From Pseudothioclava arenosa (GTDB taxonomy: Bacteria; Pseudomonadota; Alphaproteobacteria; Rhodobacterales; Rhodobacteraceae), in the NCBI RefSeq assembly GCF_002358085.1, contig NZ_NTJD01000010.1, positions 1 through 64,000 on the forward strand: a stretch of DNA of 64,000 nucleotides, written 5' to 3'. Positions 16,091-39,409 of this stretch are shown one piece after another. The translations under genes were made by a program, and so were the position numbers. Positions within the stretch are counted from its first letter, which is position 1. Every line of letters begins with the position of its first letter. The notes under the pieces were generated by a model. It did not search any database, had not been told where the DNA came from, and was given only the letters and a program-made list of their open reading frames with translations.

Positions 16091-16165
16091 AGGTGGTCTC
16101 CAAAACGAAAAGCGCCGCCTGCATGGCAGGCGGCGGATGAAGGCGCGGCGCTCGGAACGGTGGCT

Positions 16166-16546
16166 TTAATTGCGCTCGGGCGTCACTGATGGAATTGCCG
16201 ACAGGATCGGGTCGGGCTTCGGTGCGTCCCACTTCGCGGTCATCGCGGCCCAGCGGTCGATTTCCGCGCGGAAGCCGGGATCGTCGATGCGTAGATGGAA
16301 GGTATAGAGCCGATCCACGATCTCGCGCATCAGCGCGCGCATCTCGTCGTCATTGATCCGTGAGACCTCGGACCAGGGGATGCGTCTGCCCGCGGCGTCC
16401 TCGACGATGACGTCGCTGCCATCACCGGTGTGCGAGACCGGTGTCAGACCTGCATGCAGGGTCTCGAGCTGCGTGTTGCGCACGCAGGCGACTGCCATCA
16501 CTTTGGCTAGCTGGGTGGCGATCCGGTCTTCATCTTCAGGGCGCAT
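16166..16546 (-). CDS. small conserved prophage protein, unknown
   Basis: A 126-residue hydrophilic protein rich in acidic residues, with no signal peptide or membrane helix. It lies between the megatron tail fragment and the DUF2793 gene, where small proteins of this kind often occur in Rhodobacteraceae prophages. The right-hand copy of this tail block lacks it: only 10 bases separate the two flanking genes there. Function not recognised. Confidence 0.6.
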   Translation of the reverse strand: MRPEDEDRIATQLAKVMAVACVRNTQLETLHAGLTPVSHTGDGSDVIVEDAAGRRIPWSEVSRINDDEMRALMREIVDRLYTFHLRIDDPGFRAEIDRWAAMTAKWDAPKPDPILSAIPSVTPERN

Positions 16547-16598
16547 GACCTAGCCTACGCCGGAGAACGCGAGGCCGGCCAGAACTCATTGCGCCACA

Positions 16599-20349: not shown

Positions 20350-20465
20350 TCGCTGCCCTCCGCCCCGATTCCCGTGTAAGATGTTTACTTTTTGTTCTTA
20401 TTCGCTTGACGGGCTCCGATCAATCCGATTTTATCCTATTTCATCCACAGTTGGGTGGGGATGAC
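20350..20465. promoter_or_regulatory. divergent phage operator/promoter region
   Basis: A 116-base AT-richer gap between the early gene and the repressor. Toward the repressor, TTGACG (20406-20411) with a 17-base gap to TTTTAT (20429-20434) is a plausible weak promoter. GTAA/TTAC arms at 20376-20388 make an imperfect dyad that could be a repressor site. Assignment rests mainly on the divergent layout. Confidence 0.4.
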
Positions 20466-21143
20466 ATGACCGAGCACCACACGCTTTCCGACCGCCTCAG
20501 AGCCCGGGCCAACCAGCTCGGCATCAGTCCCGCCCACGTCGCCGAGATGGCCGGGGTGAACCGTTCGTTCGTCTACGACATCCTCCGTGGCCGTTCAGCC
20601 CGCCCTGGCATAGACCGGCTGGCCGAGGTCGCCCGCGTGCTGAAGGTGGATCGCGACTGGCTGATCCATGGCATCGGTGAGGTGGAGGGGAAGCCCCCCT
20701 TCCTGGACAATCCTGACGACGCCTTCGTTGCCATCGCCCACGCCACCCCGCGCCCCGCGATGGGCGGCGGCGCCGTCGTGACCGAGGACGGCGACACGCC
20801 CGGCCGGGTCTATCATTTCCGCCGCTCCTGGATCCGAAACAGCCTCAAGGCCACTCCGTCGCAGCTGCGCATCATGCATGTCGAAGGCGACAGCATGGCG
20901 CCGACGCTGCTGAGCGGCGACGCGGTGCTGGTCGACATGACCCGTCGCGCCCCCAACCCGCCCGGCATCTTCGTTCTGGACGACGGGATGGGACTGGTGG
21001 CCAAGCGGCTGGAGCACATCCCCAACAGCGACCCGCCCGCGGTGCGCGTCATCTCCGACAACAAGCACTACCCCGAATACGAAAGAACGGCCGACGAGAT
21101 CCACATCGTCGGCCGCATCCGTTGGTTCGCGCGGGAGTTATAG
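20466..21143 (+). CDS. CI/LexA-like phage repressor (XRE HTH plus S24 peptidase)
   Basis: A 225-residue repressor. An XRE helix-turn-helix covers about residues 8-62 (ISPAHVAEMAGVNRSFVYDI). The S24 peptidase-like domain has the catalytic Ser143 in VEGDSMAPTL and Lys180 in LVAKRLEH. It would hold early phage genes off and self-cleave after DNA damage via RecA, although I see no clear Ala-Gly cleavage site in the linker. ATG 20466 has GGTGGGG upstream. It is intact, while most of its prophage is gone. The defence operon begins 586 bases downstream on the same strand. Confidence 0.85.
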   Translation: MTEHHTLSDRLRARANQLGISPAHVAEMAGVNRSFVYDILRGRSARPGIDRLAEVARVLKVDRDWLIHGIGEVEGKPPFLDNPDDAFVAIAHATPRPAMGGGAVVTEDGDTPGRVYHFRRSWIRNSLKATPSQLRIMHVEGDSMAPTLLSGDAVLVDMTRRAPNPPGIFVLDDGMGLVAKRLEHIPNSDPPAVRVISDNKHYPEYERTADEIHIVGRIRWFAREL

Positions 21144-21634: not shown

Positions 21635-21705
21635 TTGCCTGCGCTCAACCACTTCGCTAGCATCGCCTCAAGCACAGAAAATGTGCGCGCATAGTTACCA
21701 TGCGC
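21635..21705 (+). promoter_or_regulatory. candidate promoter and operator of the defence operon
   Basis: TTGCCT (21635-21640) and TAGCAT (21658-21663) are spaced 17 bases apart, a weak sigma-70-like promoter. Just downstream is a perfect dyad GCGCAT-N7-ATGCGC (21687-21705), 23 bases before the GTG of the WYL regulator. WYL regulators of defence loci bind inverted repeats in their own promoter, so this is a good candidate operator. Confidence 0.45.
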
Positions 21706-21728: not shown

Positions 21729-22646
21729 GTGGAAGACAGCAAGGCGGAGCTTCGCTGGGGCGTCGAGCAACGGCTCGAGTTCATCGAGTTCCGCCTGTTT
21801 TGGGAGGGGCGGGTGAACCGCAGCGACCTTATGGGTCAGTTCGGAGTTTCCGTGAACCAGGCGTCCGCCGACCTGAATCGCTACATCGGCCTGGCGCCCG
21901 ACAACATGGTCTATGACAAGAGCGCACGGACCTACGTGCGCACGCCAGACTTCAAGGCCCATTTCAGCGAACCCGACGCAAGCAAGTATCTGGCACAGCT
22001 GCGTTCTGTCGCCGATGGCATCCTTGACCGGGAAGATGCATGGATCACGGAGTTTCCGCCTTTTGCATCCGCACCGACGCCGGTTCGTGGCGTCAATCCC
22101 GCAACGCTCCGATCGGTCGTCCGCGCCATTCGACGGTCGGAAGCGATCGAGGTGAAATACCAAAGCCTGTCCCGCCCGGAGCCGAGCTGGCGCTGGGTCG
22201 CGCCCCACGCCATAGCGTTCGACGGCTTCCGCTGGCACGTCCGGGCGTTCTGTTTCACCGATGACTGCTTCAAGGACTTCCTGCTTTCACGAATTCTCGA
22301 CATCCGCGGATCAAGGGAGAGCGATACATCGGCCGACGAAGATTGCGACTGGCATTGTGAGGTTACTCTGGAAGTTGGGCCCCACCCCGAGCTCTCAGAA
22401 ACACAGGCGAAGGTCATCGCTCTCGACTACGGCATGCGTGGCGGAAAGGCCAAGATAAAGGTCCGACGCGCATTGCTCTACTACGCTTTGAAGCGCCTCG
22501 GTCTCGACACTGATCCGAGCGCACGTACACCTCAAAACCAACAAATCATCCTGATAAATCGCGGCGATGTAATGGCAGCTATACCCAGCAGTCAGAAAAG
22601 CGGCAGCCGACTAAGCACGGAACGGCGGATTGGCGCCAAGAAATGA
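21729..22646 (+). CDS. WYL-domain transcriptional regulator (BrxR/CapW-like)
   Basis: A 305-residue regulator: N-terminal winged HTH (about 8-60, EFRLFWEGRVNRSDLMGQFG then VNQASADLNRY), a WYL domain (about 120-200; the namesake motif is the variant GFRWHVRAF, with arginines in LLSRILDIRGSR), and a C-terminal extension. This layout is that of BrxR/CapW regulators, dimeric repressors of BREX, CBASS and similar phage-defence operons. I choose GTG 21729, preceded by GGGAGAG; an in-frame ATG at 21681 would translate through the dyad at 21687-21705. It leads the operon, 28 bases before the DUF499 gene, and probably autoregulates it. Confidence 0.85.
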   Translation: MEDSKAELRWGVEQRLEFIEFRLFWEGRVNRSDLMGQFGVSVNQASADLNRYIGLAPDNMVYDKSARTYVRTPDFKAHFSEPDASKYLAQLRSVADGILDREDAWITEFPPFASAPTPVRGVNPATLRSVVRAIRRSEAIEVKYQSLSRPEPSWRWVAPHAIAFDGFRWHVRAFCFTDDCFKDFLLSRILDIRGSRESDTSADEDCDWHCEVTLEVGPHPELSETQAKVIALDYGMRGGKAKIKVRRALLYYALKRLGLDTDPSARTPQNQQIILINRGDVMAAIPSSQKSGSRLSTERRIGAKK

Positions 22647-22674
22647 GAACAGTGAGGATAGGGGGCTTTGGCGG

Positions 22675-25600
22675 ATGACGAACTCGGAAAACCATACCAA
22701 TGGACTGTTGTCCCTCTATGACAGTTGCACCCCGCGTGCGGACATTATCAAGGGGACTTTCAACCCAGAGCTTTTCACTGCGAGCCTGAACCAGGTGATG
22801 GATAGCTATGCAGGTCAAAGTGTTGCGGAGACCCCCTACACTGATGCCTCTGTCTTCTTCGGAGAGGCGACATACCCCACGAGCGGGATGCGCGACCTAT
22901 TGTCCACCGTCCTCCTAAGGGTCGCTGGAGACACCACGGCGAGCGCGATCACCCGTCTTGAGACTGGGTTTGGTGGTGGGAAGACCCACTCCCTGATCGG
23001 GCTGGTCCACTGCGCCAAACGTGGAACGGAGATTCGCGAGCTCGTTGCCCCCCTCTTTCCAGGCCTGCCGCTGCCTGCGCCGGGCACCGTGGACGTCGTA
23101 GCGATCGCGGGGGACGTTCTCTCTGTGAATAAGCCGTCCGGTGCCGCGCTCATCCCCCATACCCTCTGGGGCGAGCTTGCAATGCAGGTGGGAGGTGAGA
23201 CGCTCTACAGGGAATTAGAAGGGGACGCCACCTCGGTTGCAGCGCCCGGCAAGGACTTTTTCAAACGGGTACTCGACGGGCGTAAGGTGATCATCCTTAT
23301 CGACGAGCTTGCACAGTATGTCGCGCGGTTCGAGGCAGCGCATCCGGGAAAGGGCGCAACACAAGTGGCTGCCTTCCTCATGTCCTTGTCGACCTTCGCC
23401 CGGTCCGCATCCGGCATCGCGGTCGTGATCTCCCTTGCCAGCTCATCGGACGCTTTCGCCCGCCAAAGCGAGAGCCTTGGAACCGAACTTACTCGGATCA
23501 CAGGGTCCGAGGTCGCCCCGGAGGAGGCTGCGCAACGGGCCGCGCGCGCCGTCGGCGAGACCGAGAGCGTCGTTGCGCGTGATGCGCTGCCAATTAAGCC
23601 AGTCCCACAGAGCGAGCTCGCCCGGGTTCTCGCCCGCCGACTGTTCTCGCACATCGATCCCGAAGCAGCAGAAAGGGCCGCGGAGGCTTATGCCGCCCTT
23701 TACGCCAGCTCACCGGCCGACCTGCCTTCAGAGGCGAAACAGACCGACTATGCGGACCGGATCCGGGCTAGCTACCCCTTCCACCCGACTTTCCTGCGGT
23801 TCCTGAACGAAAAGCTCGCTTCGATCGAAACATTTCAGGGAACTCGCGGGGTTCTGCGGGTTATGACGCTGGCGATCAGGCTCCTCTGGCAGAAGCGACC
23901 GTACGCCCCAATGATCCATGTGGGGCATCTCGACTTCTCGGACCGGCTGATGGCGGACGAGATCGTGGGAAGCCGTCTCAAGGCGGGCGATATGCAGATC
24001 GTCCTCAACACCGACGTCGGGGGGCCTCAGTCAGATGCGCTCGCCTCGAACCGGAGCCGAGCTCAGATGCGCGACGCCGCCAACCCGCTCCCGTCTGGGG
24101 TTCCATACCACGAGATGACTTGGCGCGTCGTTCTGGTGAACAGCCTGGTTGGCCGCGCCGGTGGGGTGTCCAACAACCTGTTTGGGATCAACGAGGCAGA
24201 CGCCCTCCTCTCCGTACTGATGCCGGGGCTGCCCGCAACCGCTGTGAAGACCGCCCTCGAGGCAATTCAGAAGCACGCCTATTATCTGCGAGAGGATGGG
24301 GGAAAGTTCTTTGCGAACACCGACCCGACCATCAACCGGGCCCTCAGCGACATCCGTGAGGGGGTGAAACGGGATGACGCTTTGCGGCTTATCCTCGAGG
24401 CGTCTCGGAAGGTGATCACGAACCAGAACGGGATCTTCGAGGTTCGAGAAGACGTGACCGCCCCACAAGACATGGCTGAGTCCCCCCGTCGCCCCTCGAT
24501 TGGGATCGTTCGGGTCGACGCCCCGCGCATAGTGGTCGACGATTTCATTCAGACGGTGGGGAACGGACAGCCGAGGATATCTCAGAACCATGTAGCGCTT
24601 CTGATCCCCAACACTGTTCCGACAGACCGGGACAGTGATGGGATGTTCGGCGACCAGCGGGCGCAACAGAGCCTAGACAGGCTCCTTGAGCTGGCGCGAG
24701 ATGTCCGGGCTATGGAGAAGCTCGCCGCAGACCCCGGCGCCTATGGACTCACTCTCCGGCAACTTGATGACGATTTCCAGGGCCGCCGAGCGCGGGCCCG
24801 GAACGACCTAAACGTTGCGGTAAGCAAGAGCTACACCCGGCTTGTATATCCGGGGTCCGACGGCATCGCGATCCGAGAGATCCGGGTTGCTGGCGGTGAA
24901 GGGGGTGCCCCGGTTGCCGAGCAGGTCAAGGAGATCTTACGCAAGGACGGAGAGGTAATCGAGACGGATCGGGCAGCCACCATGGAGATCGTTCGTGGCC
25001 TCTCCCAGCTCTTCTTCGGCCTTGGCGGGGATACACCAACCGTCAACGGGATCCGGGACGCGTTCGCGCAGCAACGGCGCTGGCCAATTCTAGAAAACCC
25101 AAGCGTCTTGAACCGCGTAATCTCCGCAGGTGTAGAGCGAGGTGTCTGGTGCTTGTTCCGCTTCACCGACGCCAAGAGCGATCGGCCTGACGAGATTTAC
25201 GATGCGCAAAACCAGGTCCCGCTGAACGTCGATCTCTCTGCCGATGGGTGGTCTATCATTCAGGTGGCGAAGGCCCGAGCCCGCGGCTGGATCAAGGGGG
25301 AGAAGCCGTCCGAAGACAAGATCAGGGAATGGGCAGCAGAGGTGGCACGGCTTGCCACTGAAACCCGCGTCTCCGACATCGTAGAGAAGGTCAAAGAGAA
25401 ATCTGAGGCCGTGACAGACGCGGACGTCCTGAACGTTATCCCCAAGGTGATCGCGCAGGACCGATACCTCATTCACGACGGCGAGCCGGCGCAGCAAGAA
25501 AAGCCAAACGGCTTTCGTGAAGGTGTCGAAGCGACCATCCGTCCCCCGCGCCCCGATGATGTGCTGATTGTCCGGGCTGAAGCTGCGAGGCGCGGCTGGC

Positions 25601-25935
25601 TCGCGAGCGCGCCCCAGACCCTTCTGATCGAAGAAGAAGGAGACGCACCGAGGGTCCTTCTGCCTTTGGTCAAGCGTCTCGGTCGTGTGGGCGCCAATGG
25701 CACTAAATCGACAGTGGATGACCTTAGAGTCCAGGCCCTCAAGGTACCCGGAGGAGCATCGATCGACCTCAAGATTTCAGGCGCAACACCAGAAAGCCTG
25801 AAAGCACTGGATGAGTTGTTCGAAACCCTTATGACCGTTGGCCGGGTCGATGCCGACACATTTGCGTCGATCGAAATTGAACATCCGGATGATGAGTGCG
25901 CCTTGGTGGCAGAGCTCAAGAAAGGCGCTGAATGA
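22675..25935 (+). CDS. DUF499 family ATPase of the defence operon
   Basis: A 1086-residue DUF499 protein, a large P-loop ATPase. Walker A is ETGFGGGKTHSLIG (about residue 97-110) and Walker B VIILIDELAQYV (about 203-214), followed by a sensor-like region with VVISLASSSDAF. A long helical C-terminal region ends overlapping the next start (ATGA). DUF499 ATPases occur with DUF1156 methylases and large helicases in predicted anti-phage operons (Hma-like), by analogy with the BrxC/PglY ATPase of BREX. ATG 22675 is chosen because the HTNGLLSLYD start is family-like; the upstream TTG extension overlaps the regulator. The exact mechanism is unknown. Confidence 0.88.
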   Translation: MTNSENHTNGLLSLYDSCTPRADIIKGTFNPELFTASLNQVMDSYAGQSVAETPYTDASVFFGEATYPTSGMRDLLSTVLLRVAGDTTASAITRLETGFGGGKTHSLIGLVHCAKRGTEIRELVAPLFPGLPLPAPGTVDVVAIAGDVLSVNKPSGAALIPHTLWGELAMQVGGETLYRELEGDATSVAAPGKDFFKRVLDGRKVIILIDELAQYVARFEAAHPGKGATQVAAFLMSLSTFARSASGIAVVISLASSSDAFARQSESLGTELTRITGSEVAPEEAAQRAARAVGETESVVARDALPIKPVPQSELARVLARRLFSHIDPEAAERAAEAYAALYASSPADLPSEAKQTDYADRIRASYPFHPTFLRFLNEKLASIETFQGTRGVLRVMTLAIRLLWQKRPYAPMIHVGHLDFSDRLMADEIVGSRLKAGDMQIVLNTDVGGPQSDALASNRSRAQMRDAANPLPSGVPYHEMTWRVVLVNSLVGRAGGVSNNLFGINEADALLSVLMPGLPATAVKTALEAIQKHAYYLREDGGKFFANTDPTINRALSDIREGVKRDDALRLILEASRKVITNQNGIFEVREDVTAPQDMAESPRRPSIGIVRVDAPRIVVDDFIQTVGNGQPRISQNHVALLIPNTVPTDRDSDGMFGDQRAQQSLDRLLELARDVRAMEKLAADPGAYGLTLRQLDDDFQGRRARARNDLNVAVSKSYTRLVYPGSDGIAIREIRVAGGEGGAPVAEQVKEILRKDGEVIETDRAATMEIVRGLSQLFFGLGGDTPTVNGIRDAFAQQRRWPILENPSVLNRVISAGVERGVWCLFRFTDAKSDRPDEIYDAQNQVPLNVDLSADGWSIIQVAKARARGWIKGEKPSEDKIREWAAEVARLATETRVSDIVEKVKEKSEAVTDADVLNVIPKVIAQDRYLIHDGEPAQQEKPNGFREGVEATIRPPRPDDVLIVRAEAARRGWLASAPQTLLIEEEGDAPRVLLPLVKRLGRVGANGTKSTVDDLRVQALKVPGGASIDLKISGATPESLKALDELFETLMTVGRVDADTFASIEIEHPDDECALVAELKKGAE

Positions 25936-26540
25936 CGGCTAAGAAAGGGCGTCCGCACAGACATGCGGAACTCTACAAGGCGCTGCATGAGGGGCACCTC
26001 TCCGCGGCGCCCTTCGCGTTGCGGATCACGCGTCACAGCGACGTTCCTCCGCCTGTACTCGTGATCAAGGAACGGCGGGCCCGTGACGGGGATGAGGGGG
26101 ATGCGCGGACCGGACATCTTCAGGACCGCGGCCGACTGCATGGGGACAGCCTCCGCCGCCTCCTGCCGGTCGTCCGAGCGATCGCGTCTCGGGCCCGCAA
26201 CGAAAATGACGTTCCGCTGGAGGTCGACGCCTTCCTTTCCGAGGAAGGAATGCGCACACAGCGGACCCTGGTTCTCGATGAGGAGGCCGGCGCGAAGCTC
26301 GGGATCATCTTCAAGCTCCAGGAGCGCATGAGCGACCTCGATCGGTCGGAACTGCTGTCACGGCGGGTCGCGACCTTTTCGCGGGAGGAGGCCGTCTACT
26401 GGTTCTCTCGGATCACGCATTATGGGCCGGTCGCCAACCGGTGGGCCGTATCCGGACTTCGAGTGATGCTGTGTGGGCAGGGAAAGGGACCGGACGCTGA
26501 GGTCGACTCCATGCTCATCAAGCTGCGCGCGCGCCAATAA
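25932..26540 (+). CDS. 202-residue defence-operon protein of unknown function
   Basis: A 202-residue soluble, strongly charged protein (MTAKKGRPHRHAELYKALHE). The N-terminal half looks like a small beta domain (FALRITRHSDVPPPVLVIKE), the C-terminal half helical with EEAVYWFSRITHYGPVANRWAVSGLRVMLCG. No enzyme motif, membrane segment or zinc knuckle is seen. It is coupled to the DUF499 gene by an ATGA overlap and lies 18 bases before the methylase gene, so it is very likely part of the system, perhaps an adaptor or specificity factor. I do not recognise the family. Confidence 0.7.
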   Translation: MTAKKGRPHRHAELYKALHEGHLSAAPFALRITRHSDVPPPVLVIKERRARDGDEGDARTGHLQDRGRLHGDSLRRLLPVVRAIASRARNENDVPLEVDAFLSEEGMRTQRTLVLDEEAGAKLGIIFKLQERMSDLDRSELLSRRVATFSREEAVYWFSRITHYGPVANRWAVSGLRVMLCGQGKGPDAEVDSMLIKLRARQ

Positions 26541-26558
26541 CGGAACAAAGGGAATAGT

Positions 26559-29500
26559 ATGAAGGATTTGTCGAACGCCCTGCGGCTCATGGAGAGCGGC
26601 TTCCCGTGTCACCAGGTGGGCGCGGAAACGCGACGAGAGCGCGGGTCCAGCTCGGCCCTGCCACCCCTCTACTTCCTCCATGTCTGGTGGGCGCGCCGCC
26701 CCCTGATCCCGTCTCGAGCGGCTATCCAGGCGTCCCTCCTCGGGTCCGATGCCGATCCGGACGCCTTCGTCCGGGACCTCGGAATCATGAAGAAGGTCGC
26801 GATCGTCGGCGACCAGGAATGGACCCTTGTCGGGAAGCCGCTGGCGCATGTGCGCCGGACCGCTTCAGGCGAGTCCCTTCTTCTCGACGAGAAGGGAATG
26901 AAGTTCCTCGAGGCGGAGGTCGAACGGCGCGAGCGGAACCGGGAGATCATCGACCGGCTGACCTCCTATGATCCGGCCTTCTCTCGTGATCCCGTCGTGA
27001 CACGCTGGGCGCAGGACTCTGTCGCGTTTCGGTTGCCGCTCCCGGCGGAAGGCACCCGGCTCCGCGTTGAAGATCGCGCGGCCGACCCGGCGCATGTGAA
27101 CGACCGCGTCACCTTCGCCAAGCTCGACCGGGTGAAGCAAGCGCTCGGAGAGACCATCCGATGGGACCCGGAGGATCTTTACGCGTACGGTCGAGCCTAT
27201 GCGAACTCGCCAGAGTATCGGCCGACCGGTCTGACCGTTCTGGATGCGACCGCCGGCGGGGGCAGCATCCCGTTCGAGGCCCTGCGCCTTGGACACACCG
27301 TGATCGCCAACGAACTGAACCCAGTGGCGACGGCGATCCTGCATGCGACTCTGGACTTCCCGGCCCGGTTCGGACCGGACCTGCTGAATGACATCCAGGG
27401 GTGGGGCGACCGGCTCGTTTCTGAGGTCGAGGCGGAGATGCTCGACGTCACCCCCCGCTCCCCACTGCCGCAGGCGGAGCGTCAGAAGCTGGAGCGGGTC
27501 GTGCGCGGTGATAAGGAGTTGATGCGCCTCTATGGTCAGACCGAGCATGACCAGAACGGGATCCTTTACTGCCGGATGGTCAAGTGTCCGTCCTGCGGGG
27601 GCGATGCGCCTCTCCTGAACAGCTTCTGGCTTCTCAAGGTGCAAGGGGATCAGTGGGGCGTTCGGATTGTTCCGAACAAGGACAAGACCGTCGATTTCGG
27701 TGTGTATGAGATTTCGGGTGGGAGAGGTCCGAACGGAGAAAACCCAGAAGACTCGACCGTGACTCGCGGCGTAGGCCAATGTGTGCATTGTCGTCAGGCG
27801 ATCTCTGGGGACGAGATCAAGGCGCAGGCACGCGGAGAAAGTCGAAATGGGACCTGGTGGGATCGCGTTTACGCGGTTCACGCCGCTCGCCTAGAGCCCA
27901 AGATGGATGCCCGCGGGCGTCCACAGCGTTACGCCACCGGAGAGCGAGCGGGGGAGATCAAGACTGGCAAGGTGAAGTTCTTCCGCGCTCCAACCGATCA
28001 GGATGAAACTGCCCTAGCTGAAGCGAAGCGGCGGCTCGATGAGAACTGGGCCCGCTGGGAGCGTGACGACCTGATCCCGACGGAAGCTTTTCCGGAAGGA
28101 AATGACATGCGCCCCGTGAACTACGGCATGCCGAGGTGGTGTGACATGTTCGCTCCTCGCCAACTACTCGGGCACCTGACGCTGGTAGAGCGGCTCCGCG
28201 CCTTGCAGCCAGAGATACGGGCGGCCCTCGGTGAGGTGCGCGGCAATGCTGTCATCACCTACCTCCAGTTCATGGTGGACAAGTTCGTCGACTACAACAG
28301 CCGCCAGACCCGTTGGGAGTTCACCCGTGGCGTTGTTAAAGGGACATTTGGACGGCACGACTACTCATTGAAATGGACCTATGGAGAAATGCCTTACGCC
28401 GGTCCCTCTAGCGGACTTCGATGGGCTCTCTCTCAGGTTTTGGACGCCTACCAAGGGATATCAGAACTCGCTCTTTCCGTTCACCAGGCCCAAGGCAGGA
28501 ACCTGCCGCTGAAGATCATCAACGGACCGGCAGGGAACATGTCCGAGGTCGCAACAGGATCCGTCGACCTGGTCTGCTTCGACCCTCCCTACTACGACAA
28601 CGTCCAGTACGGGGAGCTGTCCGACTTCTACTACGTCTGGCAGAAGCGCGGGCTGCGCGACGTCTTCCCGGGCCTGTTCTCCCGGCGCCACGTGAACAAG
28701 AAGGACGAGGCGGTCGCCAACCCGGCCCGTGACGGGTCGGCAGCGAACGCCAAGGCGGCCTACGAGCGGATGATGGGCGAGATCTTTGCCGAGTGCCGCC
28801 GGGTCCTCAGTGATGACGGCGTCATGACCCTGATGTTCACCCACAAGAAGCAGGAGGCGTGGGAGACCCTGACCCGATCGCTGATCGAGTCCGGCTGGGT
28901 CATCACCGCCTGCATGCCGGTGGAATCCGAGTCCGGATACTCGACCCACCAGATGAACATGGCCTCCGCCGCGTCGACCATCTTCATCACCTGCCGCAAG
29001 CGGATCGACGAGGACGCGGAACCGGCCGCCTGGCAGGGGATCGGCGGGACTGGGGTCGCGGCGCGGATCCGCGCGGCGGTCCGGGACGGGCTGGTCGAGT
29101 TCGACCGCTTGAACCTCAGCCCGGTCGACGAGATGATCGCGAGCTTCGGGCGGGCGCTTCAGGTCCTGTCCGAGCGCTGGCCGGTGTATGACGGGGATGA
29201 TGTGGTCTCGCCGGTTCAGGCGATGACCGCAGCAAGCGCCGTCGTGGCAGCGCACCAGATCACCCGGATCACGCAGGGTCGCCTCTCGGTCGATGAGCTG
29301 GACACGGAGACCGGCGTCGCACTCACCATCCTCGGCGCATTCGGCACGGCCGAGTTTGCCTTCGACGACGCGCGGAACCTCGCAAACGCCCTGAACGTCG
29401 CGATCGAAGGGAAGAGCGGGAATTATACCGTCGCTGATCGAAGGGTGGGCCTCGCTACCCAGCAGCCCGGTGCGACCTATGCCGCGCCCCTCGTTAAGTC

Positions 29501-29777
29501 GGGTTCGAAGGTGCGCCTTGCGGCACCGGAAGAGCGGGCCCCTGCGCGCCTTGAGAAACCCCAAACTGCGTGGGACAGGCTCCACGGCCTGATCGCCGCC
29601 TATCGGCAAGGGGAAGACGTTCTCGTCCGGGCCTATTTCGAGAAGCATTGTCTGCCGCAGGCGCAACTGCTGCGAGACCTGCTGGAGGTTTACCGGGCCG
29701 AGATCGGGGATGAGCGGCTTCAGAAGGAGGTCGACTGGGTGCGCTTTGCCCTTGAGAGCTTCGGGGACGCGCAGTGA
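26559..29777 (+). CDS. DUF1156-type DNA methyltransferase of the defence operon
   Basis: A 1072-residue DNA modification enzyme. The N-terminal DUF1156 signature is clear (PPLYFLHVWWARRPLIPSRA). Motif I, the S-adenosylmethionine site, is LDATAGGGSIPFEAL (about 227-241) and the catalytic motif IV is DPPYYDNV (about 675-682), the DPPY form of N6-adenine/N4-cytosine methylases. CPSCGG near 343 and CVHCRQ near 408 look like a split zinc ribbon. It probably marks host DNA so the helicase/nuclease partner attacks unmarked phage DNA. ATG 26559 has AAAGGGAA. No second specificity subunit is nearby. Enzyme class is firm; base and target site are unknown. Confidence 0.88.
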   Translation: MKDLSNALRLMESGFPCHQVGAETRRERGSSSALPPLYFLHVWWARRPLIPSRAAIQASLLGSDADPDAFVRDLGIMKKVAIVGDQEWTLVGKPLAHVRRTASGESLLLDEKGMKFLEAEVERRERNREIIDRLTSYDPAFSRDPVVTRWAQDSVAFRLPLPAEGTRLRVEDRAADPAHVNDRVTFAKLDRVKQALGETIRWDPEDLYAYGRAYANSPEYRPTGLTVLDATAGGGSIPFEALRLGHTVIANELNPVATAILHATLDFPARFGPDLLNDIQGWGDRLVSEVEAEMLDVTPRSPLPQAERQKLERVVRGDKELMRLYGQTEHDQNGILYCRMVKCPSCGGDAPLLNSFWLLKVQGDQWGVRIVPNKDKTVDFGVYEISGGRGPNGENPEDSTVTRGVGQCVHCRQAISGDEIKAQARGESRNGTWWDRVYAVHAARLEPKMDARGRPQRYATGERAGEIKTGKVKFFRAPTDQDETALAEAKRRLDENWARWERDDLIPTEAFPEGNDMRPVNYGMPRWCDMFAPRQLLGHLTLVERLRALQPEIRAALGEVRGNAVITYLQFMVDKFVDYNSRQTRWEFTRGVVKGTFGRHDYSLKWTYGEMPYAGPSSGLRWALSQVLDAYQGISELALSVHQAQGRNLPLKIINGPAGNMSEVATGSVDLVCFDPPYYDNVQYGELSDFYYVWQKRGLRDVFPGLFSRRHVNKKDEAVANPARDGSAANAKAAYERMMGEIFAECRRVLSDDGVMTLMFTHKKQEAWETLTRSLIESGWVITACMPVESESGYSTHQMNMASAASTIFITCRKRIDEDAEPAAWQGIGGTGVAARIRAAVRDGLVEFDRLNLSPVDEMIASFGRALQVLSERWPVYDGDDVVSPVQAMTAASAVVAAHQITRITQGRLSVDELDTETGVALTILGAFGTAEFAFDDARNLANALNVAIEGKSGNYTVADRRVGLATQQPGATYAAPLVKSGSKVRLAAPEERAPARLEKPQTAWDRLHGLIAAYRQGEDVLVRAYFEKHCLPQAQLLRDLLEVYRAEIGDERLQKEVDWVRFALESFGDAQ

Positions 29778-32700
29778 CAGAAGCAGCCGGCGCGAAAGAG
29801 ACGCCGGCGTCCTTCCGGGACGTCGAGTGGCGGGACGAGTACCGGACGTCGGAGATCCGGCCCGGCGAGCCTGCGACCGATATCCTGAAGGAGTTCTATA
29901 TCCCGGCCTTGGAGCGGTCGGTCCGCTATGACCGGGTCGCCGGGTACTTCCGGTCCTCCTCCCTCGCGGCCGCCTCTCAGGGGTTCACCGCCTTCGCTCG
30001 CAACGGGGCGAAGGCTCGTTTCCTGGTCGGTTGCGATCTGGACGCGGCGGACGTGAAGGCGGCGCTGAGGGGTGCTGATGAGGCGCTTGTCGCACATCTG
30101 ACGGCCGCACTTGAGAATGACGGGTCCTGGAGCGCGGAGACGGTACGGGGCGTCGATCTTTTCGCCTATTTGGTCTCCAAGGGGCTCCTCGAGGTGAAGG
30201 TGGCCTTTCGGGTTCACAAGGGAACCGGCGATCCGCTTTCCGTCGAGTCCACGGCCGACGGTTACGTTCACGAAAAATGGGCCGTGTTCGTGGACGGAGA
30301 GGAAAACGTGATCCGGATCGACGGTTCCCTGAACGAGTCAAAGACGGCCCTGTCGATCAACGCCGAGAACGTCCTGCTGCATTGTTCGTGGTGGGATGAA
30401 CGGAGCCGTCGCCAGACTGGGAAAGCTCTGAAAGATTTCGATCACCTCTGGCGTCATGGGAGCGAGGGGATCCGCGTCATGGCTTTGCCAGAGGCGGTCC
30501 AGGCGCGTTTGGTCCGAATGGGACGGGACGTGATCGAGCCGAAGGAGATCGACGGGACGGAGGCACCCACTCCGCCGAAGGATCCAGAAAGCCCGTTCGC
30601 CGCGCTCGCCCCGATCGATTATCTTCGGTGGCGCCTGATCAAGGACGGGCCGCGCCTGCCTGGTGGGCGGTTCGTCGGGATCGAGACCGCCCCGGTCGTT
30701 CCTTGGCCGCATCAGGCCTTCGTTGCCCGTCGTCTCGTGACCTCCTGGCCTCACAGTTTCCTGATGTGTGACGAGGTGGGGCTTGGGAAGACGATTGAGG
30801 CCGGCCTTGCGATCCGGTCCCTTACCCTGTCCGGCATCGCCTCGAGGGTGCTGATTGCCTCCCCTGCCTCCCTGACGCGACAATGGCAGCGCGAGATGAA
30901 GTCGAAGTTTCTGCTCGATTTCGCCCGGACGGCCCCGCGCGGGCGGATAAGTCATGAGCGTCTGGACGGGGACTCGACCCCGGTCGAGGTTTCCGAAGGG
31001 GGCCTTCTCGCCCCGGACCTGGTGATCGCCTCGACCGGCTTGCTGACGCACAGGACTAGGCGCAGCGAGGTCCGGGGCGCCAAGGGGTGGGATATCGCCC
31101 TCGTGGACGAAGCCCACTATGCGCGTGCGGTCCACCGGCAGAACCAACTCTACTCACTCATAGATGAAGTGATCCGCCCGAAAGCTCGCGCCCTTCTACT
31201 CGCTACCGCGACCCCAATGCAGCTCGCGATGCAGGAGGCATTCGATCTGATGCGGCTCACCGGACGGGTCGGCAGCTTCGGGCTAGATGACGACATCTCG
31301 CGACAGTATTACGAGGCGGTCCAGGAGTTTGTCCGCGGCCGGGGCCGGATCTCCGACGCGACGCTGGAGTTCCTGCGCCGCGCCATTCTCGAGATCAAGC
31401 TGCTCGATCCGGAGTACTGGACATTCATTATGAGCGCCTACCGTTCGCCAGCAGATCAGCGGACCGTGGCCCGTTGGGTGGAGGAAGCGCGCCCGTTCCC
31501 GGCCGGGGACTGGCGACTTATCGCCCGGGTTCTGCGCGCGGCCGCCCCGCTCTCGCGCGTCATGTTGCGTCACACTAGGGACCTTCTGCGGCTCTACCGG
31601 GACAGCGGAAAGCTGAACGCAAACTTGGCCGAAAGGCATGTGCGTCCACTCGACCCGATCAACTTCTCGCCGACCGAGCGGCGCGTCTACGACGCGCTCG
31701 AGGCATACTGTCGGGATCTCGACACCCGCGTTCGGGCCTCCGCCCGCCAGGAGGACCAGCGACGCGTCGCCTCCGTCGGCTTCTATCTAAGCTTCCTTCG
31801 GCTCCGTTTCGCTTCCAGCCTCCATGCGATCCGCAAGACGCTGGAGCGGCGGACAGAGAAGGTGAAAGCCACCCTTCGGGCCCACCAGCACGCCGGGTTC
31901 AATCCTACCAACGAGGAGCTGGAAGAAGCCGTATTCGAAGGGGATGATGAAGGGGACGAGGTCGCTGTCGATGCTCTGCTGGACGGGCGCACCGAATCCG
32001 ACCTCCTTTGGGAGCAGGAGGCGCTTCGGGGTCTATTGGATCGCCTCGACGAGTTAGTCGGTGTGCCGTCAAAGCTCGACCGGCTCCTGTCCGAGTTGAA
32101 CGCGCGGCGCCAAGGCAGCCGGTTTCGACAGACGGTGGTCTTCACCCGTTTCAAGGACACACTTGATCACTTGGTCGACGAGCTCCGCTCCCGGATGCCT
32201 AGCGCGCTGGTTGGCACCTTCTCCGGGGCGGGCGGCAGCCGTTACGACCCTGCCGCTGGGAAGATGATCAGCACCACACGCCTCGAGATCACCCAAAGCT
32301 TCGTCCGCGGGGATATCGACGTCCTGCTGTGTACGGACGCCGCGGCTGAAGGGCTGAATCTCCAGACCGCAGACCTGCTGATAAACTTTGACCTTCCTTG
32401 GAACCCGGCGAAGGTGGAGCAGCGGATCGGGCGCATCGACCGGATCGGCCAGAAGTATGATGAGATCTTCGTCGCGAACTACGCTTACGCCGGGTCGGCG
32501 GAGGAGCGGGTCTACGGGCGGCTCCTCTCCCGTCTCGCGGAGGCGGGCCTGATAGTTGGCCCACAACAAATCGCACTGCTGCCGGTCACCGAGGCAGACT
32601 TCCGAGCCCTCGAGAACCCTAGTGTCTCGGCCGACGAGCTCCGGCGGATAGAGACAGAAGCGGCCGAACGGCTACGTCGATCCAAAGCGGCGGCTGAGGC

Positions 32701-33637
32701 CCTCGAGATTCCGCCAAAGGAGCTGCAGGAGTTCTACCGGGCCTGGGAGCGGTCGGGCGACTTCGCCGCCCCAGTCTCGTTGGCGGACATTGATGTCGCG
32801 CTGACTTCCCTCGCAAAAGTGGCCCCGCATCTTCTCTCCGTGACCGAACATCCCGGTATCTTCGCCCTTCGTTACGAGGACGGACGGGTTTCTCATATCA
32901 CCGCATCACGGGAACTTCTTGATCGGCCTCCGCCTGAGGTTCGGACTACGCTAGAGTTCGCGTCCTACGGCGCTCCCGCCTTCGATCATCTCTTGGAACA
33001 GCTCCCGGATTTGCACGCGGGGTGGATGGCGCGTGTCAGTGTTTCAGGGGCACTCGGAAACAACGGGATCGAGAGAGTCGGCTTCTGTGTTGCCACTACG
33101 ACCGGTCCGGTCAGTGCGCTACGGGTCGCTGACCTTAAGGAGATTGAGATTGATCCGAATGCCACGGTTGGAGAGGCCGACTCGGCGCCGGTCGAAGCCG
33201 AACTGGCAAAGGCGCTAGCGGACGAGATCCGCGCCGTCGAGAAAGGCATTGATGACGTCAACGCGAACAGGCGCGCGTCCGCGGAGCAGCTGGTCCTATC
33301 CCACGAGATCGCTGCCGCATATCTCGAGACCGCAAGCGGCGCAAACGACGCGGATGATCTGCACCGTCGTCTTCGGGACGAACTGATACCGAACAGACCC
33401 CACGGTCTCCTTGTCCGAATGCAGCCGGCTCGCCTCGCTCATCGGACACCGATGCTTTCTGAGACCTCATTTCGAGGAATTCCCGGCGATGAGGCTAACG
33501 TCCACATTTCTCCCCCACAGCTAAAGGCGGCTGAAATCAAGATTGACGGGGTGATCCGAGAGATGCGGCGTCAGGGGGAAGAAATGTTTCGAGAAGAGGC
33601 AGCCGCTCGCCTAAGGCGCAAGGTGGCCAGACTCTGA
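29774..33637 (+). CDS. PLD-nuclease/SNF2-type helicase fusion of the defence operon
   Basis: A 1287-residue protein combining two activities. The N-terminal part (about 15-230) is a phospholipase-D-like domain with one HxK motif (VHEKWAVF, His about 166) followed by D and GSLNES, as in PLD-type nucleases. A superfamily 2 helicase follows: motif I DEVGLGKTIEAG (about 333), motif II DEAHYA (about 444), motif V TDAAAEGLNLQ (about 855) and motif VI QRIGRIDRIGQ (about 884), the RapA/SNF2-like class also found as DrmD in DISARM. It starts at GTG 29774 inside the methylase stop (GTGA overlap). The fusion suggests a DNA translocase carrying its own cleavage domain. The C-terminal 350 residues are not recognised. 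Confidence 0.87.
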   Translation: MTEAAGAKETPASFRDVEWRDEYRTSEIRPGEPATDILKEFYIPALERSVRYDRVAGYFRSSSLAAASQGFTAFARNGAKARFLVGCDLDAADVKAALRGADEALVAHLTAALENDGSWSAETVRGVDLFAYLVSKGLLEVKVAFRVHKGTGDPLSVESTADGYVHEKWAVFVDGEENVIRIDGSLNESKTALSINAENVLLHCSWWDERSRRQTGKALKDFDHLWRHGSEGIRVMALPEAVQARLVRMGRDVIEPKEIDGTEAPTPPKDPESPFAALAPIDYLRWRLIKDGPRLPGGRFVGIETAPVVPWPHQAFVARRLVTSWPHSFLMCDEVGLGKTIEAGLAIRSLTLSGIASRVLIASPASLTRQWQREMKSKFLLDFARTAPRGRISHERLDGDSTPVEVSEGGLLAPDLVIASTGLLTHRTRRSEVRGAKGWDIALVDEAHYARAVHRQNQLYSLIDEVIRPKARALLLATATPMQLAMQEAFDLMRLTGRVGSFGLDDDISRQYYEAVQEFVRGRGRISDATLEFLRRAILEIKLLDPEYWTFIMSAYRSPADQRTVARWVEEARPFPAGDWRLIARVLRAAAPLSRVMLRHTRDLLRLYRDSGKLNANLAERHVRPLDPINFSPTERRVYDALEAYCRDLDTRVRASARQEDQRRVASVGFYLSFLRLRFASSLHAIRKTLERRTEKVKATLRAHQHAGFNPTNEELEEAVFEGDDEGDEVAVDALLDGRTESDLLWEQEALRGLLDRLDELVGVPSKLDRLLSELNARRQGSRFRQTVVFTRFKDTLDHLVDELRSRMPSALVGTFSGAGGSRYDPAAGKMISTTRLEITQSFVRGDIDVLLCTDAAAEGLNLQTADLLINFDLPWNPAKVEQRIGRIDRIGQKYDEIFVANYAYAGSAEERVYGRLLSRLAEAGLIVGPQQIALLPVTEADFRALENPSVSADELRRIETEAAERLRRSKAAAEALEIPPKELQEFYRAWERSGDFAAPVSLADIDVALTSLAKVAPHLLSVTEHPGIFALRYEDGRVSHITASRELLDRPPPEVRTTLEFASYGAPAFDHLLEQLPDLHAGWMARVSVSGALGNNGIERVGFCVATTTGPVSALRVADLKEIEIDPNATVGEADSAPVEAELAKALADEIRAVEKGIDDVNANRRASAEQLVLSHEIAAAYLETASGANDADDLHRRLRDELIPNRPHGLLVRMQPARLAHRTPMLSETSFRGIPGDEANVHISPPQLKAAEIKIDGVIREMRRQGEEMFREEAAARLRRKVARL

Positions 33638-33771: not shown

Positions 33772-34848
33772 TCAGCCGATCTTCATGCCCCAGAAGGACG
33801 TCTGGTCGGCCGCGAAGTAGCCGTCCGCGGCGCGGAAGTTGCCTTGCAGTTCGACGGTGTCACCGGCGGTGAGCGACACCATCGTCTGCAGCCAGAGCGC
33901 CGTAGCCTCCGAGACGTGCACCCCGCTGATCTCGCCCCGCGACCCGCGGATTTCGGTCGTGCCGTTCAGGGCGAGCCGTCCGCTCATCCGCGCCAATGTG
34001 CTGGCGTTCACCTTGTAGAGGAGCGTCGCGCCGAAGAGGTAGGTGCCGTCCACCGGGGCCACGAAGCGGTTGTTGGCGGCATCGAAGGCGCCCTGATCGT
34101 TATAGTCTGTGTTGTTGATCGCGATCTTCGTCCAGGTCCCGACGCCCACATAGTTGTCGTAGTTGGTGTACGCCTTGAAGCGGGGCAGCCGGGGCTGGTC
34201 GACGATGCCGGTGGCGTTGTCGACGCTCAGCCCGTCGAAGAAGGTGCTGCCATCGGCCGAGACCGCGAGCCGGAAGCGGTCCGAGCCGAAGAGGCCCACA
34301 AGCGCCTTGGTCACGAAGCCGGTCTGCAGGGTGAGCCCGAGATCGTCGCCCGCAGCCTCCTTGTTCATGGTGTAGAACAGATCGCCCGTGCCGCCCTCGG
34401 CCACCGTCTTCGCGGTCCAGAGCGCGGCGTTCAGCTTGGCCGCGAACGGGTTCGACGCATCCGCCGTTGTGCCGAGCCCGAGCAGTGCCATGTTCTGCAG
34501 CGTCGATGGCGTGGTGCCGATCCAGCCCGCGCCGTCGTAGACCAGAAGCAGTCCCTCGTCCTCGACCCACGCCCGCCAGCCGGTCCGCGGCGGCAGACGC
34601 AGCCAGACGCCGTCGGTCCAGAGCACCACGTTCAGGTCCCAGCCCGCCCAGTCGCCGGTGGCGCCCGAACCGACGATGTAGCGATCGCCATCGGCTGGGC
34701 TTGCGGGCGGCACGGTCAGATCGCGGTCGAGCACGGAGAGCTGGACGAGCCCGTCGAGCAGCCGCAGCGCCTCGTTGTGGGTGACGTGCTTCTGGGCCTG
34801 CGCCGCGAGGATGAAGGGCAGCAGGAGATGGGTCGTGGCGTCGGACAT
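33772..34848 (-). CDS. phage DUF2793 tail-associated protein (right copy)
   Basis: A 358-residue DUF2793 protein, colinear without gaps with the left copy at 15014-16090 and roughly 90% alike; residues around 133-240 are identical (AKLNAALWTAKTVAEGG onward). Differences cluster in the N-terminal third and in the C-terminal jellyroll-like part, as expected for receptor-binding proteins. It lies only 10 bases after the megatron gene, lacking the 126-residue gene present on the left. Probably a tail fibre component; intact. Confidence 0.82.
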   Translation of the reverse strand: MSDATTHLLLPFILAAQAQKHVTHNEALRLLDGLVQLSVLDRDLTVPPASPADGDRYIVGSGATGDWAGWDLNVVLWTDGVWLRLPPRTGWRAWVEDEGLLLVYDGAGWIGTTPSTLQNMALLGLGTTADASNPFAAKLNAALWTAKTVAEGGTGDLFYTMNKEAAGDDLGLTLQTGFVTKALVGLFGSDRFRLAVSADGSTFFDGLSVDNATGIVDQPRLPRFKAYTNYDNYVGVGTWTKIAINNTDYNDQGAFDAANNRFVAPVDGTYLFGATLLYKVNASTLARMSGRLALNGTTEIRGSRGEISGVHVSEATALWLQTMVSLTAGDTVELQGNFRAADGYFAADQTSFWGMKIG

Positions 34849-34858
34849 GGGATGGCCT

Positions 34859-37800
34859 TCAGAGTATCAGCGTGACGGTCTTTGGTGCGCCCCGCCCGAC
34901 GAGGGCGGAGAGCTGGTAGATGCGGATGTCGAGCGTGTCGCCGGGCCCGAGCGGCGCGCCCCAGTCGGCGGTCTGCTGGGCGGCGGTGTAGACCGCGCTG
35001 GTGGTGGCGGTGCTCAGCACCCGCTTCACAGTGGCGCCGTCGAAGATCTCGACCTCGTAGGCTTCGAGCTCCTCGGCCAGCGGCACCTCGAGCCCGCCCC
35101 AGCTGTCCGCCGCGAGGGCTCGGGACCGGCGTGTCCAGCGGATCGTCAGATCGCCGGCCGTGCGCGACTTGCGCCATGGCTGCTGGACATGGGCGACCGA
35201 GAACGGCCGCAGCCCCGCGCCCTGAGGCGTGAAGGATTGCGCGACATAGGTCTCGTCGCTGACCGGGCGGCTCGCCGGGCCGATGCGCCAGTTCCACGGG
35301 ATGCCGAGATTGGCTTCGGCGATCGGCAGCGATGCGAGGCTGTCGTCGAGCACCACCACCCGCGCGCCCGCAGGAGCCGGATTGCCCATGGCGTTTTCCG
35401 TGCCGCGCTGGCCGCGCAGGAGGCGCGTCAGACGATAGCGGCCCGGCGCCAGCAACTCGGCCACACCCGCCTGCACGATCTCCCAGACGCCGGGCGCGCT
35501 CTCGATGGCCAGCGCGTTCGCCCCGCCGAACAGGGTCAGGTCGGTGACGCTCTCCAGCGTGCCGGTCAGCAGATCGACCGCGAGGACATTGCCGAGGTCG
35601 AAACGCGAAGTGGGTCCGGCGTAGAAATCCGAGACCAAGGTGCCGATCCGGGCCCGCGTCCCGAAGCTGGTGAGCAGTTCGAAGCCGTCCGTCGACGGAC
35701 TACGGAATACCGCGATCTCGCCGGGCCACGGCACGGCATGCGCCGCCGCGAACGGCCGATGCGCGGGCTGGTCCTCGGTCAGCTGCGGCAGGTCCATCAG
35801 CACCGTATCCGGCGCGCCGAACACGACGGCCCGCGTCAGCGAGGCCGCGCGGGGATCGCCGGGCGGCAGGTCGTAGGTCGCGCGGTCCTGGCGGACCGCC
35901 TCGATCCCGCGCGCGTCGGCGTCGGCGATGGAGACGAGCCGCAGATCGACCAGCCGCCCGTCATGCTCCAGTTGGATCGCATCGGCCGGATCGAGTGCCA
36001 GGCGCGAGGGCGGCAGACGGAACGCCGCCGTCTCGCGACCCACCCACGCCTCCATCAGCGCGCGGCGGCAGCGCCGCTCGGCCTCTTCGGGGGGCACAGC
36101 CATCGGAAAGGACTCAGAGGCGATCCGCGTCGTGTCGACGGTGATGCGTCGGGCCTCGACGAGGGCCGCGTCGTAATCCTCGTCGGCGCGAGCGACCTGC
36201 CATTTCAGGGCCTGCGGTAGTTCCGTCTCCTGGCCCCGCGTCAGTTCCAGCACGTCGCCCTCGCGGGCGGCCACGAGATCGTCGGGCACGAGCGTGGCGA
36301 CGGAGGCCCGGCCGCGCATGAAGAAGCGGATCACCCCCTCGGTCTCGACGGCATCGAAGCCGAAATGCCGCGACAGCGTGGTGATCGAGGCGCGCGGGCT
36401 TTCGAGCGCCGTGATGGCGTAGCCCTCGACCGCGCCCCAGAGGCCCGTGACGTCGATCCGGGACTCCGGGAGCCCCGCGCGCAGGCAGAGGTGCCGCACG
36501 AGCGCCGCCAGCGACACCGCGCCCAGCCGCCCGGTCAGCCAGTGGCCGAGCCGCCAGTTCGCCCCGTCCGTCCAGACATCGGTCAGCGCCGGAAAGAACG
36601 GATAGGGCCGCGCGTCCCAGGTCCAGGCGGCGCATTCCGGCACATGCACCATGCGGCCGCCGTAGACCGAGGACAGCGGGTTGTTCGCGGCCTCGCCCCA
36701 CCAGAGGTACGTCGCCTCCAGATAGGCGCGCTGGATGGCGTCATCGCGCCAGCCCCGCGAGAAATGCGGCGTGAAGCTCTCGGACGACTTCGGGTCGAAG
36801 AAGACGTTCGGCTGGTTGGTGCCCCGGTCGATGGCCGGACAGCCGAGCTCGGTGAACCAGATCGGCTTGGATTGCGGCGCCCATGCCGTCGGCGTGCCGC
36901 TTTCCACCCCGCCCGGGCGGTCGTAATGCGCGTTCGACCACCAGGCACGCAGATCCTTGTAGCGGAAGACCCACGGCTTGCTGGCGGCACCATCGGTGAT
37001 CGGGGTGCGGACCTGCGCGGTGCGATCCGCCGCGCTGGTGTAGAACCAGTCGAAACCTTCGCCGCCCGCGATGTTCGTCTGCAGGTAGGCCCGGTCATAG
37101 ATCGCAGGCCAGCCCTCCTGCGCATCGGCATGCTCGAAGCCGTCGCGCCAGTCGGACAGCGGCATGTAGTTGTCGATCCCGACGAAATCGACGTTGCCGT
37201 CCGCCCAGAGCGGGTCGAGATGGAAAAATACGTCGCCCGAGCCATCGCCCGGCTGGTGGCCGAAATACTCCGACCAGTCGGCTGCATAGCTGATCGCCGT
37301 GCCCGCGCCGAGGATGCTCCGCACATCGGTCGCCAAGTCCTTGAACGCCTGTACCGCCGGATAGGTGCTGGCGCCCGAGCGGATCGTGGTGAGCCCGCGC
37401 ATCTCGGTCCCGATCAGGAAGGCGTCGACCCCGCCAGCTGCCGCGCAAAGATGGGCGTAGTGCAGCACCATGCGACGCAGGCCCCAGTCGCCGGCCGCGC
37501 CGGTCCAGGCGACGGTCTCGCCCGAGACGGTGAAATCGGACGGGCTGGCGCTCCCAAAGAAGGCCGCGACCTGGCTTGCCGCCGTGGCGGTCTTGTCGAC
37601 GCTGCCGGCATAGCCCGCCGCGGGCGAGCAGGTGATCCGGCCGCGCCAAGGGAACGCTGGCTGGCCCGTCTCGGCGGCGTTATCGCTGTACGGGGTCGGC
37701 AGCGGGTTGCCGGACGGCACGTCCATCAGGATGAACGGATAGAAGGTGACACGCAGGCCGCGCGCCTTCATCTCCTTGATCGCCTCGACGACGGCGAAAT

Positions 37801-39395: not shown

Positions 39396-39409
39396 AAGGA
39401 CCCCACGCC

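Follow-up and report, generated by a model that had tools for sequence, protein, structure and literature searches.

In the accessible text of a survey by Rakesh and Krishnan (PMC12839542), DUF499-centred systems related to bacteriophage exclusion (BREX) are described as restriction-modification-like and divided into three types of BREX-related (BR) system, among which the named system Hma falls, and antiphage evidence is cited for HmaA. Type-2 BR systems are defined there by an HKD nuclease motif at the helicase N-terminus and by a DUF3780 gene, found in 98% of taxa. We analysed a 64,000-nucleotide stretch of Pseudothioclava arenosa contig NZ_NTJD01000010.1 (hereafter the window), in which an operon at 21729–33637 encodes the three large proteins of such a system together with a small DUF7680 protein. 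DUF7680 is absent from the main text of PMC12839542, and its loci may figure there under another heading; the accessible text of the ARMADA preprint (PMC12458937) contains neither DUF499 nor DUF1156. Because DUF7680 stands in the DUF3780 slot, the large proteins fall in separate clades and the cut-offs of the DUF3780 family models are missed, we place the window cassette in a BR branch of its own, as yet unnamed, which would work like Type-2 but falls outside that type as defined.

The operon consists of five plus-strand open reading frames (ORFs), all present and open with their catalytic motifs intact, in the order WYL regulator, DUF499 ATPase, DUF7680, DUF1156 methylase and SNF2 helicase. 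The preliminary description of this locus had likewise seen five tightly coupled plus-strand genes. The first encodes a CapW/BrxR-type WYL transcription regulator of 305 residues (21729..22646; PF13280, 4e-12). Its longest ORF runs from 21681, and we judged the GTG at 21729 to be the better start because the WYL ORFs of two near-identical relatives (L069 and L072) begin no more than 6 bases from the matching position. The second encodes an AAA+ ATPase with DUF499 and a C-terminal DUF7744 (22675..25935; longest ORF 22630–25935; PADLOC HmaC, 3.2e-80). The ATG at 22675 appears a likelier start than 22630 because two homologues (L010 and L018) begin near there and the protein of the related locus L075 has 1086 residues; the junction with the WYL gene is a 28-base gap from this start and a 17-base overlap from the other. 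The gene for the 202-residue DUF7680 accessory protein (25932..26540; PF24728, 9.5e-36) overlaps the ATPase gene by 4 bases, the gene for the DUF1156 adenine-type DNA methylase (26559..29777; HmaB, 1.3e-63; DUF1156, 5e-11) begins 18 bases past it, and the gene for the fusion of an HKD (phospholipase D, PLD-type) nuclease with an SNF2 helicase (29774..33637) overlaps the methylase gene by 4 bases, in agreement with the earlier statement that three of the four junctions overlap or are shorter than 20 bases.

The identities given earlier to the ATPase and the methylase are confirmed by Pfam, PADLOC and intact motifs. In Pfam, the ATPase matches DUF499 (2.4e-28) and DUF7744 (2.5e-32), and it carries a Walker A motif (GFGGGKTH, 22966–22989) and a Walker B region (VIILIDE). 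The methylase has motif I (DATAGGGS, 27243–27266), CPSC (27585–27596), CVHC (27780–27791) and DPPY (28581–28592). The helicase carries HEK (30269–30277) and GSLNE (30323–30337), followed by DEVGLGKT, DEAH, TATP and QRIGR. We take all of these to have the functional meaning usually given to them. The N-terminal PLD domain ascribed to the helicase also holds: Pfam finds SNF2 and Helicase_C and gives the PLD part a weak match below the cut-off (PLDc_2, E 0.042), and the same part is clear in PADLOC (PLD_Helicase, 3e-58; PbeA, 1.5e-53, residues 13–460), in the NCBIfam model phospholipD_antiphage (1.8e-89, yet 301 bits where the cut-off is 1100) and in a conserved HxK...GSxNE motif. Of 49 long helicase ORFs from related loci, 48 show the HKD pattern. 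Judged by its domains, the operon appears to be of the ATPase-methylase-helicase defence type with a nuclease-helicase fusion, as had been proposed.

The window combines in one locus the three proteins common to BR systems of all types, a DUF499 ATPase, a DUF1156 N6-type methylase and a Swi2/Snf2 helicase. It also has the Type-2 HKD at the helicase N-terminus (HEK...GSLNE), and this N-terminus aligns with those of HKD helicases, a comparison by sequence alignment only that bears on the Type-2 criterion of a helicase lacking an N-terminal TUDOR domain. The slot of the standalone DUF3780 gene is occupied by DUF7680, and Pfam and PADLOC gave no DUF3780 match in the locus. We read six plasmid loci of the DUF3780 type, several of whose proteins bear NCBI anti-phage names. 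Five show the gene order of the window with DUF3780 in the DUF7680 slot (genes are inserted in two of the five, the helicase is split in one and the ATPase in one), and the plasmid locus L112 is broken by transposases.

Separate trees were built for the ATPases (33 sequences), the methylases (33) and the helicases (32), all unrooted and without Type-3 and BrxC sequences. DUF7680 subgroup A was represented by ten of 80 genome loci and the window, with L010 and L027; L109, L111 (split helicase), L112 and L113 (broken or split genes), L121, L007 (broken frames) and most genome loci were left out. The DUF3780 set and DUF7680 subgroup A each received a support of 1.0 in all three trees, and the window ATPase lies outside the Type-2 clade. 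The common architecture, gene order and predicted order of subunit elements would also fit a Type-2 system whose accessory subunit has diverged past recognition, so that a separate branch would be unwarranted. We regard this as unlikely: the DUF3780-type ATPase, methylase and helicase clades exclude the DUF7680 type, the window proteins score far below the NCBIfam equivalog cut-offs of the DUF3780 system (157 versus 1200, 177 versus 1000 and 301 versus 1100 bits), and DUF3780 is all but constant among Type-2 taxa by the figure given above (PMC12839542).

The preliminary description had called the operon Hma-like and suggested a PADLOC run. That run did name the ATPase HmaC and the methylase HmaB, but the best match of the helicase was PLD_Helicase, with HmaA fourth. 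Together with bit scores of the window DUF499 protein that were higher against Type-1 proteins (139–162 bits; H95, H99, H100, H112 and H119) than against DUF3780-type ones (86–108 bits; H103, H107, H116, H117 and H122), these names would suit an Hma (Type-1 BR) system that simply gained an N-terminal nuclease and an extra gene. Such an origin seems improbable to us, given a different gene order, an HKD at the N-terminus, the lack of a C-terminal PD-ExK-like region and a clade of their own for the Type-1 proteins. All six Type-1/Hma-like loci retained have the order helicase-methylase-ATPase (with the helicase on the opposite strand in L118, and with the L122 helicase, annotated DUF3883, assigned by position). 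Three aligned Type-1 helicases are without an N-terminal HKD and have a longer, PD-ExK-like C-terminus; the window helicase ends before the region of the Type-1 C-terminal PD-(D/E)XK in alignment A10 and has no restriction endonuclease match in Pfam. In the three trees the Type-1 set is supported at 0.996–1.0, and the window ATPase, methylase and helicase all fall outside it. The label Hma-like was thus not upheld: gene order and HKD match the DUF3780 type, and the trees place the window in neither group. A Pfam scan limited to the five genes and 12 flanking ORFs found no PglZ.

The third gene had been described as encoding an unknown protein of 202 residues; the length is right, and the family has a Pfam name, DUF7680, without a known function. 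Its signature REEAVYW lies at 26382–26402. The window protein had no match in PADLOC, PHROGs or NCBIfam, and more broadly PADLOC matched none of nine DUF7680 proteins and PHROGs none of six. An AlphaFold2 model from 50 alignment rows (pLDDT 91.8) has strands (E) and helices (H) at E28–33, E42–49, E62–69, H71–85, E112–115, H117–129, H136–147, H151–162 and H166–181, with further helices at 8–20, 98–107 (two short ones) and 189–201. A DUF3780 model from 27 rows, the first being the orphan L147 (pLDDT 90.5), has E15–20, E28–33, E40–46, H48–68, E79–83, H85–98, H103–115, H118–132 and H141–150. Compared by the order of elements only, the models of the DUF7680 core and of DUF3780 agree (E-E-E-H-E-H-H-H-H), and the signatures REEAxYW of DUF7680 and PEERWWL of DUF3780 both stand at the start of the matching helix. 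The models thus suggest that the two families are likely of shared ancestry. Linked as they are by slot and by predicted element order, a result on one would inform the other.

A DUF7680 alignment scanned against GTDB species genomes picked out 109 stretches, of which 81 were confirmed and 80 kept as related loci. Among the 78 loci where this could be tested, 73 have DUF499 upstream on the same strand (median gap 9 bases, n=73); the methylase is downstream of DUF7680 in 67 of 73 and the helicase in 48 of 54; all three partner genes are within the available DNA in 50 of 80. The four-gene cassette, without the WYL gene, is spread over Pseudomonadota, deltaproteobacteria, Firmicutes, cyanobacteria, Rhodococcus and one haloarchaeon. 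More distant members are on plasmids: those of Aminobacter, Natrinema and Rhodococcus keep the plain order, and those of Nostoc and Leptolyngbya have genes inserted. In many related loci further genes stand between those of the cassette. The family is rare and patchy: counting the window's own genome, DUF7680 occurs in 3 of 385 sampled genomes of the class, one of them by a partial match that is doubtful, and in 4 of 398 of the phylum; the only other congener examined lacks it. DUF3780 occurs in 1 of 396 genomes of the phylum sample and 1 of 372 of the class sample, and nowhere in the window's whole genome. At the nucleotide level the window cassette is 91.3% identical to one in Paracoccus sphaerophysae over 12.3 kb, 88.3% to one in Gellertiella hungarica over 11.9 kb and 87.8% to one in Aquibium sp. 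over 11.3 kb. Such near-identical cassettes indicate that the cassette moves between orders of Alphaproteobacteria. The window DUF7680 itself gave no match in plasmids or viral contigs by tblastn or pattern search, nor did the queries P0006 and P0011 in plasmids. The partial match in genome G066 covered 44 positions only, on a 15.5-kb contig without any partner gene, and was not relied on.

These data also bear on whether the operon might be a degenerate or non-defensive passenger, such as a housekeeping DNA-repair module. Its function is predicted from sequence and many loci hold extra genes, as a passenger would allow; intact catalytic motifs, the patchy distribution, near-identical copies across alphaproteobacterial orders and the presence of the cassette on plasmids and viral contigs make this a very remote prospect. 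As to the inserted genes, annotated VapC-type toxin-antitoxin genes lie inside the cyanobacterial cassettes L020 and L022, and ATPase-like and PIN-like genes, read by eye from the sequence, lie inside the L009 and L010 cassettes, with others in L007.

We conclude that the operon is probably a restriction-modification-like phage defence of the DUF499-centred BR kind. The DUF1156 methylase would mark the host genome at a target sequence. On DNA without the mark, the DUF499 ATPase would assemble together with DUF7680, which would serve as a small adaptor or licensing subunit and be the counterpart of DUF3780; the SNF2 helicase would then be loaded and translocate, and the HKD nuclease at its N-terminus would cut. 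The operon would be kept repressed by the CapW/BrxR-type WYL protein until a DNA-damage or infection signal lifts the repression. Anti-phage activity, methylation specificity, the adaptor role and repression are all things that we infer. If this is correct, DUF7680 would be the defining subunit of a widespread unnamed BR branch, which annotation tools could then detect.

Several observations count against this reading. The joining of DUF7680 subgroups A and B is weak for the ATPase (0.526) and the helicase (0.279), compared with 0.945 for the methylase, and subgroup B, supported at 0.963 in the ATPase tree and 0.976 in the helicase tree, is not recovered as a split for the methylase. The Rhodococcus helicase L023 showed no HKD pattern. 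In the window helicase, the D that follows the HxK motif is one residue off what we take to be its usual spacing, and nuclease activity is therefore only predicted. Four hhalign comparisons of DUF7680 with DUF3780 were colinear but not significant (probability 0.3–1.2%). The neighbours of both models in the PDB are below the level that the tool considers meaningful: the best VIA-align Z was 5.8 for DUF7680 and 4.5 for DUF3780, and the PI3K-gamma adaptor p101 (7mez_B) was near the top for both, with Z 5.3, a root-mean-square deviation (rmsd) of 2.9 and 76 aligned residues for DUF7680 and Z 4.2, rmsd 3.3 and 66 aligned for DUF3780. Foldseek with the DUF7680 model reached a best E of 0.62 in the PDB and 0.18 in BFVD. 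Of the 80 related genome loci, some with little upstream DNA, only 3 showed the WYL gene, which is therefore an add-on to the cassette. Our literature search found the term DUF7680 in no accessible paper and no experiment on a DUF7680 cassette.

Both subunits also occur on viral contigs without the rest of the system, and this orphan pattern is unexpected to a specialist. IMG/VR holds four stand-alone DUF7680 genes (L013, L014, L015 and L016), with DUF499 absent from all four whole contigs. DUF3780 is found on 28 viral contigs, 19 with partner genes and nine without (L141, L143, L147 and L153–L158), and DUF499 is absent from all nine of the latter over their whole length. Viral contigs may be fragments. 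Among genes with at least 3.5 kb on both sides, 6 of 23 DUF3780 genes and 2 of 6 DUF7680 genes were orphans, versus 0 of 33 DUF499 genes (Fisher 0.003 and 0.02, values that serve as guides because the sets share contigs and include near-copies). In the viral DUF499 control as a whole, 18 of 65 loci were without a partner, and each of these had less than 2 kb of sequence on one side. A lone plasmid DUF499 (L121) outside viruses speaks against a simple reading of this control. It lies on a Bradyrhizobium elkanii plasmid, without an annotated methylase or helicase within 10 kb, beside a Shedu-family nuclease gene. Searches of the INPHARED phage collection with P0010 and P0011 gave no match, and hence no named phage isolate that carries an orphan. 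Two lone DUF7680 genes in contigs of bacterial metagenome-assembled genomes (L105 and L078) were not counted as viral.

Phage character is visible around several orphans. For DUF3780, a terminase large subunit lies downstream in L147, a Sak4-like gene and an exonuclease match were seen in L153, and an exonuclease match in L155. For DUF7680, L013 has Erf and helicase genes and L014 tail or lysis-type matches; two DUF7680 orphan contigs have a terminase-family match, to a family that also matches 11 of 14 control genomes. An anti-restriction gene (phrog_2059) lies 316 bases upstream of the orphan in L015; we take this family to be of the ArdA kind. A DNA methylase lies 481 bases upstream of the orphan in L014, and no anti-defence genes were seen among nine genes near the five DUF3780 orphans scanned; an anti-defence neighbourhood is a weak line of support. 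In trees that include them, the orphans are scattered over several positions: P0010 (L014) groups with L065 and L077, both deltaproteobacterial systems (0.968), L047 with systems of Thermoactinomycetaceae (0.998), P0009 (L013) among Firmicutes (0.703) and L147 with L144 and L146 (0.89), and others are on long branches. Thermoactinomyces daqus H-18 has both the orphan DUF7680 L047 and a full cassette (L083), which are close relatives, in one strain. L047 is near a gene with a phage PAPS-reductase-type match. Another contig, L126, has apparent phage terminase and portal genes (read by eye) and then, at its end, a fragment of DUF7680 and a BR methylase; with 37 DUF7680 residues only before the methylase, it is doubtful and could be a phage-borne cassette or a chimera.

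Because several orphans sit inside system clades, we favour repeated capture of the subunit by phages, plausibly as a decoy. The orphans on long branches (P0011 and P0012, L153–L155, L141 and L143, L156 and L157) would also fit the reverse path, from phages into defence, and the orphans may instead serve in superinfection exclusion or another role. A further difference lies in the C-terminus. In alignment A11, an LF or QLxLx(L/I) motif follows the core in 17 of 19 DUF3780 copies from systems (the other two, L132 and L135, have looser forms) and in none of eight aligned orphans; several rows are near-copies, and the motif is a post hoc observation with counts made by eye. Two system copies (L142 and L149) and an orphan cut by its contig end (L158) were left out. 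The tail recurs in 4 of 6 plasmid DUF3780 proteins of A5 beyond P0013 and was not seen in the DUF7680 alignment rows. It resembles what we take to be the bacterial sliding-clamp-binding motif; binding of a system partner is an equally good reading, and a literature search joining the clamp motif with defence found no paper. Tentatively, DUF7680 and DUF3780 could form one superfamily of BR licensing subunits, captured alone and repeatedly by phages as a dominant-negative decoy, a proposal to which we give somewhat less than even weight. If it is true, orphans without the clamp-like tail would dock but not recruit, and decoys of this kind would be an uncommon counter-defence strategy, pointing at a subunit on which BR systems depend.

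The BrxR/CapW-type regulator attributed to the operon was recovered here too, from the PF13280 match and from comparison with solved regulators (CapW 9c5g, 4.6e-69; CapW 7tb6, 6.1e-64; BrxR 7t8k, 5.6e-45). Its start is preceded, at a distance of 23 bases, by an imperfect inverted repeat with 9-base arms and one mismatch (21687..21705), a weak candidate operator that by itself is not above chance (1 found versus 0.68 expected in shuffles); the outer five bases of the arms are kept in L069 and not in L072.

Placement between prophage remnants, as described earlier, is right in kind, with tail genes of phage or gene transfer agent (GTA) type on both sides and a CI/S24-type repressor (20406..21143, plus strand; Peptidase_S24, 1.6e-13; phrog_4, 6e-38). 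Adjoining the cassette on the minus strand are a DUF2793 tail-type gene (33772..34848; PF10983, 1.1e-35) and a long GTA/phage tail gene (34859..38935; GTA_TIM, 8e-158; Phage-tail_3; Rcc01698_C). A second copy of both, the large one shortened, lies to the left on the same strand (15014..18512) and was recognised by its identity to the right-hand copies (84.9% over 1169 bases and 78.5% over 1985 bases). An ORF at 38849–39985 has a partial integrase match (phrog_95, 3e-9) and is possibly an integrase remnant. A DUF2793 gene also follows the cassette in 2 of 90 loci examined, L069 (Paracoccus) and L075 (Aquibium), which hints at a shared insertion place or hot spot; the long tail gene was beside the cassette in none of the 90.

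Among described systems, the regulator is closest to the CapW/BrxR WYL proteins, to which it is similar over most of its length, WYL domain included, and which likewise stand upstream of a defence-type operon, but few DUF7680 cassettes have a WYL gene. The PADLOC model PbeA matches the N-terminal part of the window helicase, and no phosphorothioation genes were recognised in the cassette. Type-3 BR and Type-3 BREX have a homologous ATPase, methylase and BrxHII-like helicase core, as far as described in the accessible text of PMC12839542 (both are outside our trees), and differ in that no PglZ was recognised in the window cassette and the window nuclease is fused to the helicase. Hma and the other Type-1 BR systems have the DUF499 ATPase and DUF1156 methylase in common with the window, whose best PADLOC names are HmaC and HmaB, and differ in gene order, in the position and type of the nuclease, in having no DUF7680 and in forming separate clades. 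Type-2 BR systems (PADLOC PDLC02189–02193; NCBIfam NF042962–NF042964) differ by DUF3780 in place of DUF7680, by separate clades for the three large proteins and by equivalog cut-offs that the window proteins miss by far, but have the same four roles in the same order, the same N-terminal HKD fusion to the helicase, and an accessory subunit, DUF3780, whose strands and helices are predicted to follow one another as in the DUF7680 of the window.

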